Source: Gemmatimonadota bacterium (GTDB lineage Bacteria > Latescibacterota > UBA2968 > UBA8231). From it: a stretch of 27,544 nt of DNA. Below, piece after piece: positions 12,999 to 27,284 of this stretch. The position numbers and the translations under genes are program-made. Below the pieces are notes generated by a model, which saw only the letters and a list, made by a program, of their open reading frames with translations, was not told where the DNA came from and did no database searches. The DNA lies in the NCBI GenBank assembly GCA_002712305.1, contig PATE01000106.1, forward strand, positions 1 through 27,544, read 5' to 3'. Every line of letters begins with the position of its first letter. Position 1 is the first letter of the stretch.

Positions 12999-14143
12999 GC
13001 CAACCCGCCTGACTGTCGCAGTTCGGAAGAGCTGATATCCACACGGAAGCTTGCTTCCGGAATTCCGACGAAAAGGGGTCGGTGTCGGGAGGAGATCTCC
13101 ATGGATTCCAGCCCCCTATAGCTTCCCTGCCAGACTCGACCCGCAACGAAAAAGCGCGATCCACCCTCTAGTAGCTCATCCAACGCCAGCTCCATCTTTT
13201 GTACCGATCCGTAGTAACGCGGCTCGATCACACGCTGTGCTGTGTCATAACCGATGGCGAAATCGCAACCGGGAAACAAGCGGGCTTTGCCATCGAAGGT
13301 GGGCTCGCCTGTGACGATCAGACCCAGTTCGTGTTCACGTACACTCTCCCACCTCATCCACACCTCGTCGTAGCCCAAGGGTGGTTTATCTACGTTCTGC
13401 ACTGACAGTTCCAGGATCGGCTCGCGCCCACTGAGATGACCTGCCGCCGAAGCCAGTCCGAGGTGTCCCGCATGGATTGGATTGAAGGAACCGGCCACGA
13501 GCAGCCGCTCATGCCGACTCGGTTCGGCCGTGGCCGACTCCCCATTCCATTCGATCGCCGGCACCCGTCCCGCGAGCAGATCCTCAAGTGGCAGGTCGAC
13601 GGGTATCTGCGAATCGGTGATCGACACCCACTCGGGGCACGGATCGTCGACGCGCCGGGTTTCGAAGGCGGCGGCGAGCAGATCGACCAGCGCGAGACTG
13701 AGCGCTCGTTCTTGTTGTTGCCGGTCGACGGCGTCTTTGTCGAAGGCGACCTGGCGAAGGTGGTATCGCTCGTTCGCCCTTACAACCAAAGATGCACGGT
13801 CTGCACCACGACGTTGCCGCGACGTGGTCAGTGCCGCCGTCACGCCGACGCCCGCCGCATCCGATCGGCTCGTGTGCCGGCCCGCGCGTTGGCAGGCGAC
13901 CAGGGCCATGCGTCGCGCGGTCTCAGGGTTGGTCGGATGGGGTCCCTCTTGCTCGAGATACTCTGCGAGGGCCGCTTCGTGGTAAGGAATCTGTGCATCG
14001 GTGATGGACCGCGAGGCACCGGGATGACCCAAGAGCCAATTCAGGGCCAGTGACCCGCCACCGGTCACCGCCAACGCGACGGGACGCTGGGTGGCCTGGA
14101 TCGCCTCAATGACCTCTCTCAATCCGCTGTGCGAACCACTCAC
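12995..14143 (-). CDS. CinA-like domain fused to NadD-like nucleotidyltransferase
   Basis: A 382-residue protein if read from GTG 14143, which overlaps the transporter's stop by 4 nt. The frame is open to 14461 but that part is a shadow of the transporter gene. Residues 1-165 resemble the CinA C-terminal (NMN deamidase/PncC) fold: VTGGGS at 26-31, PGASRSITDAQIPY, an ETARRMA helix, and GVGVTAAL. Residues about 210-382 are a nucleotidylyltransferase of the HxGH superfamily: VAGSFNPIHAGH with His224 and His227, and a C-terminal ISSSELR matching the ISSxxR motif of NadD-type enzymes. The canonical PncC Ser and Lys catalytic residues seem replaced, so the first domain may not be a deamidase. Similar two-domain proteins occur, from memory, in plants and some bacteria. 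A role in pyridine nucleotide metabolism is inferred. Confidence 0.8.
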   Translation of the reverse strand: MSGSHSGLREVIEAIQATQRPVALAVTGGGSLALNWLLGHPGASRSITDAQIPYHEAALAEYLEQEGPHPTNPETARRMALVACQRAGRHTSRSDAAGVGVTAALTTSRQRRGADRASLVVRANERYHLRQVAFDKDAVDRQQQERALSLALVDLLAAAFETRRVDDPCPEWVSITDSQIPVDLPLEDLLAGRVPAIEWNGESATAEPSRHERLLVAGSFNPIHAGHLGLASAAGHLSGREPILELSVQNVDKPPLGYDEVWMRWESVREHELGLIVTGEPTFDGKARLFPGCDFAIGYDTAQRVIEPRYYGSVQKMELALDELLEGGSRFFVAGRVWQGSYRGLESMEISSRHRPLFVGIPEASFRVDISSSELRQSGGLA

Positions 14144-24251: not shown

Positions 24252-24280
24252 AATCTACAGGCACGATGGCGATGGGTCAA
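24252..24280 (-). promoter_or_regulatory. Predicted promoter of the ABC ATPase gene
   Basis: On the minus strand TTGACC (24275-24280), 17 nt, then TAGATT (24252-24257). This predicts a leader of about 70 nt. The -10 hexamer is the same as that proposed for uvrB. Confidence 0.55.
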
Positions 24281-24337: not shown

Positions 24338-24400
24338 ACGATTTGTGCGCCAAAACTAAACAGATTCCAGGTTCTGCCGATAATACAAACAAGCAATGAC

Positions 24401-24430
24401 TTGACGTCAAACGCTACTATTTGGTATTCT
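24401..24430 (+). promoter_or_regulatory. Candidate promoter of the MerR-REC gene, -35 inside a palindrome
   Basis: TTGACG (24401-24406), an 18-nt spacer, then TATTCT (24425-24430). The -35 is embedded in TTGACGTCAA (24401-24410), a perfect 10-bp palindrome. A second, CTTGTACAAG (24439-24448), covers the expected transcription start. Confidence 0.5.
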
Positions 24431-24507
24431 ACATAGTCCTTGTACAAGATACTGTGGAGGACGACACCAGAGTACGGTGCCGTTCGTCCGTCTGAGGAGC
24501 CAGTCAC

Positions 24508-25182
24508 ATGCCCGAAGAGCAATTGATCGATATCAAAGAAGTTGCTGAGACCCTGGGCAAGTCCGTTGAATCTATTCGCAAGTACAAGAATTTTGGGATC
24601 ATACGCGTCACTGACAAACGCGGAAACAAAGACCTGTTCGATCGTGATGAGGTCCTGAAGATCCGCGAGCGGCTACGCGAACTGAGACTGAAAGGGCTGT
24701 CCCTGTCACAGATTGCCGACCAATTGGCGATCGCCAGGCAGGAATCGATGGGAGGAGGCGTCGCTGCGACAAGCGGGACTGCCGCTCAGCGAGATCCCGA
24801 TCAACCCATGCGAATCCTCATCGTCGACGATGAGGAGGAAGTTCGCGCGAGCATACGCGAATACCTTGAGAGCAACGGATTTGCCATCGTCGAAGCTGCC
24901 GATGGAGAAGAGGCGCTGGCAAAGGCCTTTACCGAGAAGCCTGACCTGCTTCTACTCGACCTGCGCTTGCCGAAGGTTGACGGCTACCAGGTTTGCCAGA
25001 CGTTGAAGGGGAATCCGATCACTTCCGTCATCCCCATCATCATGGTCACCGCCTTGAATGCAACACCGCAGAAGGTGAAGGGGATCGAATACGGCGCTGA
25101 TGACTACATCGAGAAACCCTTCGATCTGGAAGAGCTTCTGGCGCGTATCAAGATGGTCATGCGACGCCAGCAGGTTGCCTGA
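24508..25182 (+). CDS. MerR-type HTH fused to a response-regulator receiver domain
   Basis: A 224-residue two-domain regulator. Residues about 5-75 are a MerR-like winged helix: IDIKEVAETLGKSVESIRKYKNFGII, then a wing-like RVTDKRGNKDLFDRDEVLKI, then LRELRLKGLSLSQIADQL. After a Gly/Ala/Ser/Thr-rich linker (80-98), residues 101-220 are a complete CheY-like receiver. Its acidic pair is D107-D108, phospho-acceptor Asp151 lies in LLLDLRLP, Thr181 in VTALN, and Lys203 in EKPFD. The order (DNA-binding domain first, receiver last) is the reverse of typical response regulators, and MerR-type output is unusual. AGGAG lies 8 nt before the ATG. No histidine kinase is in the window. Palindromes at its promoter suggest autoregulation. 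Confidence 0.9.
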   Translation: MPEEQLIDIKEVAETLGKSVESIRKYKNFGIIRVTDKRGNKDLFDRDEVLKIRERLRELRLKGLSLSQIADQLAIARQESMGGGVAATSGTAAQRDPDQPMRILIVDDEEEVRASIREYLESNGFAIVEAADGEEALAKAFTEKPDLLLLDLRLPKVDGYQVCQTLKGNPITSVIPIIMVTALNATPQKVKGIEYGADDYIEKPFDLEELLARIKMVMRRQQVA

Positions 25183-25252
25183 ACAGCACTAGCCTAGAAC
25201 GTGTTGGTTTAGAACGGGTGGATCGGCAGACAAACCCGAAACAAGAGATACA

Positions 25253-25289
25253 GCGGGGTGAGTGCTCGAGGCGCTCACCCCGCTTTTTT
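25253..25289 (+). terminator. Intrinsic terminator of the MerR-REC gene, overlapping the uvrB stop
   Basis: A 13-bp stem (25253-25265 with 25271-25283, one T-G pair) with loop TCGAG, followed by six T (25284-25289). The uvrB stop codon on the other strand lies at 25275-25277 inside the right arm. The T-run encodes lysine codons of the UvrB C-terminus. Confidence 0.9.
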
Positions 25290-27284
25290 CTTGTCTCCCG
25301 CCTGGTGCAGGCGAGTAATCTCGTCGCGAAGCTGGGCGGCACGCTCGAAGTCGAGGGCCGTGGCTGCCTCTCGCATCTGCGCCTCTATATCAGCGATCAC
25401 ATCGGCGACGGCATCTTCAGCAACAACTGCGTCCACATCGATCGAGGGTGCCTCCGCGGTGGGATCGACTTTACGTACACTCTCCAACACCGATGTCTGC
25501 TGGATGATTTCTTCGCGGGATCGCAGAATCGTGGATGGTGTGATGTTGTTCTCTTGATTGTACTGCTCCTGCACGGCGCGGCGGCGATTTGTCTCATTGA
25601 TCGTCCGCTTCATCGAGTTCGTCATCTTGTCTGCGTAGAAGATGACGAGACCTGCCGCGTTTCGAGCAGCGCGTCCAACCGTCTGAATCAGCGCCTGCTC
25701 CGACCGCAGGAAACCTTCCTTGTCGGCATCGAGGATCGCCACCAGGGAGACCTCAGGCAGATCCAGGCCTTCACGCAACAAGTTGATGCCCACGAGTACG
25801 TCAAACTCTCCCAGACGAAGGTCCCGAAGGATGCTGACGCGGTCGAGGGTGTCGATCTCGGAGTGTAGATAACGAACCCGAAAACCCATCTGCCCGAGGT
25901 AGTCGGTGAGTTTTTCGGCCATCCGCTTCGTCAGCACCGTGACCAGGACTCGCTCCCCTTTTTCAGCACGAGTCCGAATCTCGTCCATGAGGTCGTCCAC
26001 CTGATTGCCGAGTGGACGTACGTCGATCTCTGGATCGATGAGTCCCGTAGGACGGATCACCTGTTCGACCACGACACCTTCGGAACGCTCCAACTCGTAC
26101 GCAGCAGGCGTCGCCGAGACAAAGACCGTCTGCCCCATCTGCTGTTCGAACTCGTCGAAATAAAGGGGTCGATTGTCATAGGCAGAGGGCAGCCTGAATC
26201 CGTGCTCGACGAGCATGTCTTTACGGGAGCGGTCGCCCCGCCACATGCCTCGCACCTGCGGGATCGTCATGTGCGACTCGTCGACCATGAGCAGATAGTC
26301 GTCACCGAAGTAGTCCATCAGCACATATGGTGGCGCCCCGGGTTCGCGATGGTCCATGTAGCGCGAGTAATTTTCGATGCCGGGGCAGTAGCCAACTTCC
26401 TTGATCATCTCCACGTCGTATTTCGTGCGCGTCTCGATTCGATGCGCCTCGACCAATTTGTCGTTCTCTTGTAGCTCGAGACGCCGCCCCTCGAGCTCCA
26501 TCAGAATCCCCTCACATGCACGCTCAATCTTGTCGTCGTCGGTGATGTAGGCTTTGGCAGGATAGAGAGTCACGCCCTCACGGGTTTCCACCAGTTTGCC
26601 GGAAACCGATTCGAGGATGGAGATCTGTTCCACTTCATCACCGAACATCTCGATGCGGACGGCCAAGTCTTCGGCGGCGGGAACGACCTCGATCACATCG
26701 CCACGCACGCGAAAACAGCCGCGCTTGAGCTCGAGATCATTGCGCGTATAGAAGATGTCGATCAGCTGACGAAGAATGTCGTCACGCTCGACCTGCTCCC
26801 CCACTTTCACCGTCAGCTTCTGCGCCTCGAACTCGCGGGGAGATCCGATGCCGTAGATGCATGAGACGGTAGCGACGATGATGACATCCTTGCGCTCGAG
26901 CAGAGAGCTCAACGCCTTCAGTCGAAGGCGATCGATCTCTTCATTGATGTCGATCTCCTTCTCGATATAGGTGTCCGTCGCGGCCTTGTAGGCTTCCGGC
27001 TGATAGTAGTCGTAGTAGGAGACGAAGTATTCGACGGCGTTCTCAGGGAAGTACCCCTGGAACTCGCCGTAGAGTTGGGCTGCGAGCGTCTTGTTGTGGG
27101 AGATGATGAGCGTGGGTCGGTCGAGGTGGGCGATGACGTTCGCCATGGTGAACGTCTTGCCGCTGCCAGTGACTCCCAGCAGAGTCTGACAGGCATCTCC
27201 TCGGAGAATGCCCTCGGTCAGCTCTTCGATCGCCTTTGGCTGATCGCCGCTGGGCTCGTATTCCGCATGCAGCTTGAATGACAC
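25275..27284 (-). CDS. uvrB: Excinuclease ABC subunit B (UvrB)
   Basis: A 669-residue nucleotide-excision-repair helicase-like subunit that verifies damage after UvrA delivery and recruits UvrC. Walker A is GVTGSGKT (37-44). The damage-probing beta-hairpin region has [13 protein letters not shown], and [14 protein letters not shown] is the DEAD-like motif. [10 protein letters not shown] and [45 protein letters not shown] are helicase motifs. A C-terminal UVR domain (about 628-662, [14 protein letters not shown]) binds UvrC. Length is normal (E. coli 673). The start is GTG 27284 with a strong AAGGAG 8 nt upstream. The gene is convergent with the MerR-REC gene. Confidence 0.98.

Follow-up and report, generated by a model that had tools for sequence, protein, structure and literature searches.

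A MerR-like DNA-binding head fused to a C-terminal PhoB-type receiver in Latescibacterota, with a conserved element in the promoter of its own gene

A 224-residue protein from a Latescibacterota genome carries a MerR-like winged helix-turn-helix (wHTH) at its N-terminus and a complete PhoB-type receiver at its C-terminus, and the promoter of its gene holds a conserved element between the -35 and -10 hexamers. Taken as a whole, we consider it reasonably probable, judging from sequence comparisons and structure models, that this protein is an autoregulated, phosphorylation-controlled orphan response regulator. Within this reading, the step likeliest to fail is which protein binds the promoter word, followed by the geometry of binding (symmetric dimer versus head-to-tail). 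The window, meaning the whole stretch of 27,544 nucleotides that was analysed, is contig C106 in its entirety and part of a 4.77-Mb genome, and in it the gene occupies 24508..25182 (+ strand, ATG start) behind a Shine-Dalgarno-like GAGGAG at 24494-24499.

A sequence-only reading of this DNA had proposed an inverted domain order, with a MerR-like HTH in front and a complete receiver behind in place of the effector domain, and a Pfam domain search bore out both halves. MerR_1 is matched at residues 9-71 (24532..24720, +), scoring 26.3 bits over the full length and 28.1 bits when residues 1-100 are searched by themselves (cut-off 21.6), so that the N-terminal domain does find a model of the MerR/HTH_17 kind; this assignment also draws on the head model and on ortholog conservation. 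An HTH_17/excisionase identity for the head was dropped, as it scored 17.4 against a cut-off of 27. After a linker of low confidence and variable length (residues 79-100; 24742..24807, +), the receiver follows at residues 103-215 (24814..25152, +), where Response_reg scores 112.2 bits (cut-off 30.2) and where Pfam and structural matches are PhoB/PhoP/RpaB-like. Here, the receiver occupies the place of the ligand- or metal-sensing domain of MerR proteins, of which Pfam found none, and the Pfam result likewise holds no OmpR-type winged helix (Trans_reg_C), the protein stopping after the receiver. An assembly chimera or frameshift fusion is excluded by full-length orthologs in many genomes, among them a 94% identical copy in the same genus.

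Relatives of the head were found by profile in 23 of 64 Latescibacterota genomes, which belong to five families: the protein's own (f1), three others of the same class (f2, f3, and f4), and one elsewhere in the phylum, outside the class (f10). Full-length orthologs are present in f1 to f4 and, by profile, in f10, where the head in the one genome concerned is likewise fused to a receiver. Those near relatives of the protein that bear a name are Candidatus Latescibacterota MAGs and one filed as Gemmatimonadetes, and it is from these that we take the genome to be Latescibacterota. Within f1, the fused gene occurs in 16 of 25 genomes (in some, truncated or divided by contig ends), and the nine absences fall mostly within one genus and thus represent few independent events. 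No relatives of the head were found in 82 KSB1-phylum and 398 Pseudomonadota genomes, a search that had no positive control there and is therefore weak, and one specific to this head, so that other kinds of MerR head may be joined to receivers there; tblastn against plasmids gave receivers only among the matches listed.

A stand-alone, 101-residue copy of the MerR-like head was also encountered (genome G000, contig C31:28715-28948, -; locus L131, 8701-9006, -). Heads of this class are encoded in 12 of the 16 f1 genomes that carry the fused gene, and none of the 25 f1 genomes has the stand-alone head without the fused gene; in the other four, which have just the fused gene, completeness is 73-86%. 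The stand-alone head probably recognises the same sites as the fused regulator, with which it may compete or co-bind.

The AlphaFold2 model of the whole protein, built with 14 orthologs, comprises two domains, with the last helix of the head stopping at residue 80 and a pLDDT below 50 for residues 82-94. Because a structural search at full length was filled by receivers, the head was modelled alone (model m63e161714fe1), and nearly all of its best 50 structural matches are MerR-family proteins. Foremost among these, MtaN gave a Z of 10.4 (rmsd 1.7, with 71 residues aligned) and SoxR likewise a Z of 10.4, and these two, BmrR, CarH, CueR, and other MerR proteins match along the whole head with Z of about 8-10. 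Moreover, the first PDB match of the head's sequence profile is GlnR, and no substitution occurs within S22-N28 or the GNKD wing across the alignment of 14 full-length orthologs. Absent after the wHTH is the long antiparallel coiled-coil dimer helix of MerR proteins, as judged from the AlphaFold2 model and from the ortholog linkers, which are about 18 residues shorter in f2-f4. MerR regulators act on the promoter spacer by twisting it, for which they rely on a rigid coiled-coil dimer; with this helix missing, the fused regulator cannot simply be taken to work in the classical MerR way.

In the receiver, structural superposition places the domain with those of RpaA, VicR, PhoP, and PhoB (Z of 20-23), with 40-47% sequence identity to RpaA, PhoP, and PhoB. 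The active-site residues named from the sequence (D107/D108, D151, T181, and K203) are as described, though position 107 is a glutamate in f3/f4; D108, E109, D151, T181, and K203 are invariant across the 14 aligned orthologs, and Asp151 (24958..24960, +), the predicted phospho-acceptor, is conserved together with the domain order in many orthologs, as had been anticipated. Among the dimer-face positions of the same alignment, D198, D199, A212, and R220 are invariant and R213 is kept in 13 of the 14, while K189 and E209 are retained together in f1/f2 and both changed, to T/V, in f3/f4. In PhoB numbering, these positions are, as we take them to be, D100, D101, A114, R122, and R115, with K91/E111 for the last pair. 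The pattern suggests that the receiver would dimerise in the PhoB manner through its α4-β5-α5 surface, on which the role of such residues has been described (PMC2586830; PMC4773095).

Upstream of the gene lies the promoter TTGACG-18 bp-TATTCT (24401..24430, +), and in its spacer the near-palindrome TACTATTTGGTA (24415..24426, +), our proposed operator, which reads TACYA-N2-TRGTA in orthologs and is overlapped by TTGGTAT (24421-24427). A further element, CCGATA (24377..24382, +), is also conserved in the ortholog upstream regions and in several of them adjoins an inverted TTRGTAT. When aligned on TTGAC, all 12 f1 promoters have a spacer of 18 bp, and in them TACYA-N2-TRGTA spans the spacer and the start of the -10 hexamer, as a perfect palindrome in seven and with one mismatch in five. 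No covariation of the two arms was detected among these 12 promoters, and conservation within f1 is in part a matter of relatedness. Spacers of MerR promoters are typically 19-20 bp, against 18 bp here; in its place between the -35 and -10 hexamers of the gene's own promoter, the element fits a MerR-like position.

The arrangement differs in the other promoter groups. In four of six f2-f4 promoters, TTRGTAT lies 10 bp downstream of where the -35 hexamer begins, with a second GTAT 10 bp further on in the best cases, and the f3 promoters carry TTGGTATTAC/TTCGTAT as 10-bp direct repeats. For the stand-alone genes, CGATA-N3-TTAGTAT precedes five of six, most with a second GTA-type site 10 bp on, the 10-bp direct repeats being TTAGTATTAC/ATGGTAA. 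As TTRGTAT forms a 10-bp direct repeat in f3/f4 as against the near-palindrome in f1, the binding geometry would not be uniform.

To compare the three promoter groups (f1, f2-f4, and stand-alone), we scanned 7-mers with one R/Y position, and the best word common to all three is TTRGTAT, found in 11/12, 4/6, and 5/6 promoters, respectively (0.92, 0.67, and 0.83), with CCGATAR second. Its score was never reached in 300 relatedness-preserving column shuffles, a test that covers the choice of word and not that of region, the motif having been found after looking. The word is absent from the upstream stretch read for the f10 ortholog and from the uvrB promoters read. TTRGTAT is an uncommon word, at 0.017 per 200 bp per strand. 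Searched without mismatch, TTGAC-N9-TACYANNTRGTA occupies the promoter of the fused gene in each of the 15 f1 genomes in which the region is visible and is found only once elsewhere, in one (G021) of the nine f1 genomes without the gene. In f1, CGATANNNTTAGTAT marks the promoters of stand-alone HTH genes and recurs at a single further place common to genomes G007 and G019, the sequence of which reads as coding in G007, and the TTGG form of the site has a few further, unrelated matches.

Alternatively, the element could be the site of another factor or a promoter feature of the lineage, with no self-regulation at all, which we regard as unlikely, if deserving of weight. It overlaps the -10 hexamer, a region constrained in any promoter, but TTRGTAT is rare and, outside HTH genes, the full site is almost never seen; moreover, the word is common to the promoters of the paralog and of distant orthologs, whose genes share this head only. 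A large regulon was rejected on strict patterns, which match few places other than the promoters of the HTH genes themselves. The pattern TTRGTATTA-N2-T-N-GTA does occur before recG in G011 (L235) and G008 (L236), at about position 1500, and next to a gene for flagellin in G025 (L229), both names being readings of translations. These possible further targets are leads only, as the total matches of the pattern do not exceed those of a reversed-pattern control.

How the heads would be arranged on this DNA is the second matter to be weighed. It is possible, albeit with similarly low probability, that they assemble as a BldC-like multimer, head-to-tail on the 10-bp TTRGTAT direct repeats, with the receiver merely tuning or capping the assembly. 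In its favor, the coiled coil is absent from the fused regulator, direct repeats are present in the f3 and stand-alone promoters, the 101-residue stand-alone head is near BldC in size, and BldC itself, a MerR-like wHTH with no coiled coil, acts on 9-bp direct repeats (PMC5859096). Nevertheless, the f1 promoters carry a near-palindrome instead, and the PhoB-type dimer-face residues are retained in the receiver.

Around the gene, the f1 locus has a divergent ABC-transporter ATPase gene on one side and a convergent uvrB on the other (ATPase in nine and uvrB in 12 of the compared loci), and the regulator appears to form a transcription unit of one gene, with a promoter and a terminator to itself, the latter a hairpin with a T run of intrinsic-terminator type (25252..25284, +). 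We also noticed that this hairpin overlaps the last codons of uvrB (25275-27284, -), that the ATPase gene has a conserved divergent promoter, TTGACC-17-TAGATT (24252-24280, -), in the same intergenic region, and that short tandem repeats (GCCTCACGAAACGATGTGAGGTCC) precede uvrB in the same-genus genome G001 (L112, ~13626-13800). Downstream of the fused gene in f3/f4 come genes for a small protein whose N-terminus has a hydrophobic stretch, for a protein of two receivers in tandem, and, in most loci, for a DUF445 protein; these receiver-rich clusters (L125, 6889-9390; L127, 781-5412; L129, 9585-11020; L130, 10118-12725) have no kinase in view.

That no kinase is encoded nearby, as the sequence-only reading had it, agrees with the lack of any HATPase_c match on the window contig, 16 such matches lying over the cut-off elsewhere in the genome. 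A crude motif scan of the compared gene contexts likewise found no kinase near the orthologs, whose genomes hold many each, and the multi-genome kinase search gave, among the matches listed, a single nearby entry about 14 kb away in G001. The fused regulator is an orphan in all contexts seen. This orphan state, with no linked kinase, would suit a constitutive regulator whose receiver serves as a dimerisation module independent of phosphorylation, as in atypical response regulators, but such receivers usually lose some catalytic residues, and the invariance of these residues across divergent orthologs makes this quite improbable.

For the preferred reading, an autoregulated and phosphorylation-controlled orphan regulator, we envisage that Asp151 would receive its phosphate from a kinase encoded elsewhere or from a small phosphodonor and that phosphorylated receivers would then pair through their α4-β5-α5 faces, the PhoB-type receiver taking over dimerisation from the coiled coil. 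Such pairing would set two heads on adjacent TRGTA half-sites, at the regulator's own promoter first, from the spacer of which it might control RNA polymerase, as an activator or as a repressor. A more specific form, in which phosphorylation-driven receiver dimerisation replaces the coiled coil and distorts the DNA in a MerR-class spacer-binding switch, and in which the stand-alone head shares the operators as a partner or competitor, is a tentative suggestion that we think rather doubtful. Of what was imagined from the sequence, the MerR-type head, the intact receiver in an effector's place, the inverted order, and the lack of a kinase on the contig have stood; a phosphorylation-driven switch acting by MerR-type promoter untwisting would be one possible mechanism. 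A natural MerR protein with a receiver in place of the dimer helix would be a way to ask whether the coiled coil is indispensable to the MerR mechanism. It would also bring a regulator and its predicted operator, and with the latter the means for a direct binding test, to a phylum in which there is little or no genetics.

As far as the literature and genomes were searchable, the architecture did not prove to be widespread and already characterised, and no report of a MerR head and receiver in this order was found in literature of partial coverage; MerR-output response regulators and the HTH-receiver order are each already known separately. With the MerR family (MtaN, SoxR, BmrR, and GlnR/TnrA), the protein shares a complete wHTH with wing and the following two helices, and its promoter shares a conserved element between -35 and -10 in a spacer slightly longer than the usual 17 bp. 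In contrast, the fused regulator has a receiver and neither the coiled-coil dimer helix nor the ligand or metal domain. Its sites, a near-palindrome in the 18-bp spacer in f1 and direct repeats in f3, are candidate operators. The OmpR/PhoB family (PhoB, PhoP, and RpaA/RpaB) resembles it in the sequence and active site of the receiver and in most residues of the dimer face, but here the receiver is C-terminal and the output is MerR-type rather than an OmpR winged helix. MerR is listed among the output domains of response regulators by papers citing Galperin (PMC2222644; PMC3353171), and regulators of that class likewise combine a receiver with a MerR-type DNA-binding domain, though, going by the citing papers' description, in the usual receiver-first layout. 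Archaeal LtrR and FilR1 have the DNA-binding domain first and the receiver last, yet theirs is an archaeal HTH or wHTH that is not shown to be MerR-like (PMC5847659). Lastly, BldC of Streptomyces, which shows a MerR-like head to be functional in the absence of a coiled coil, resembles the head in its wHTH and in the direct-repeat candidates seen here, and differs in being a 68-residue protein with no receiver, whereas the window protein is fused to one (PMC5859096).
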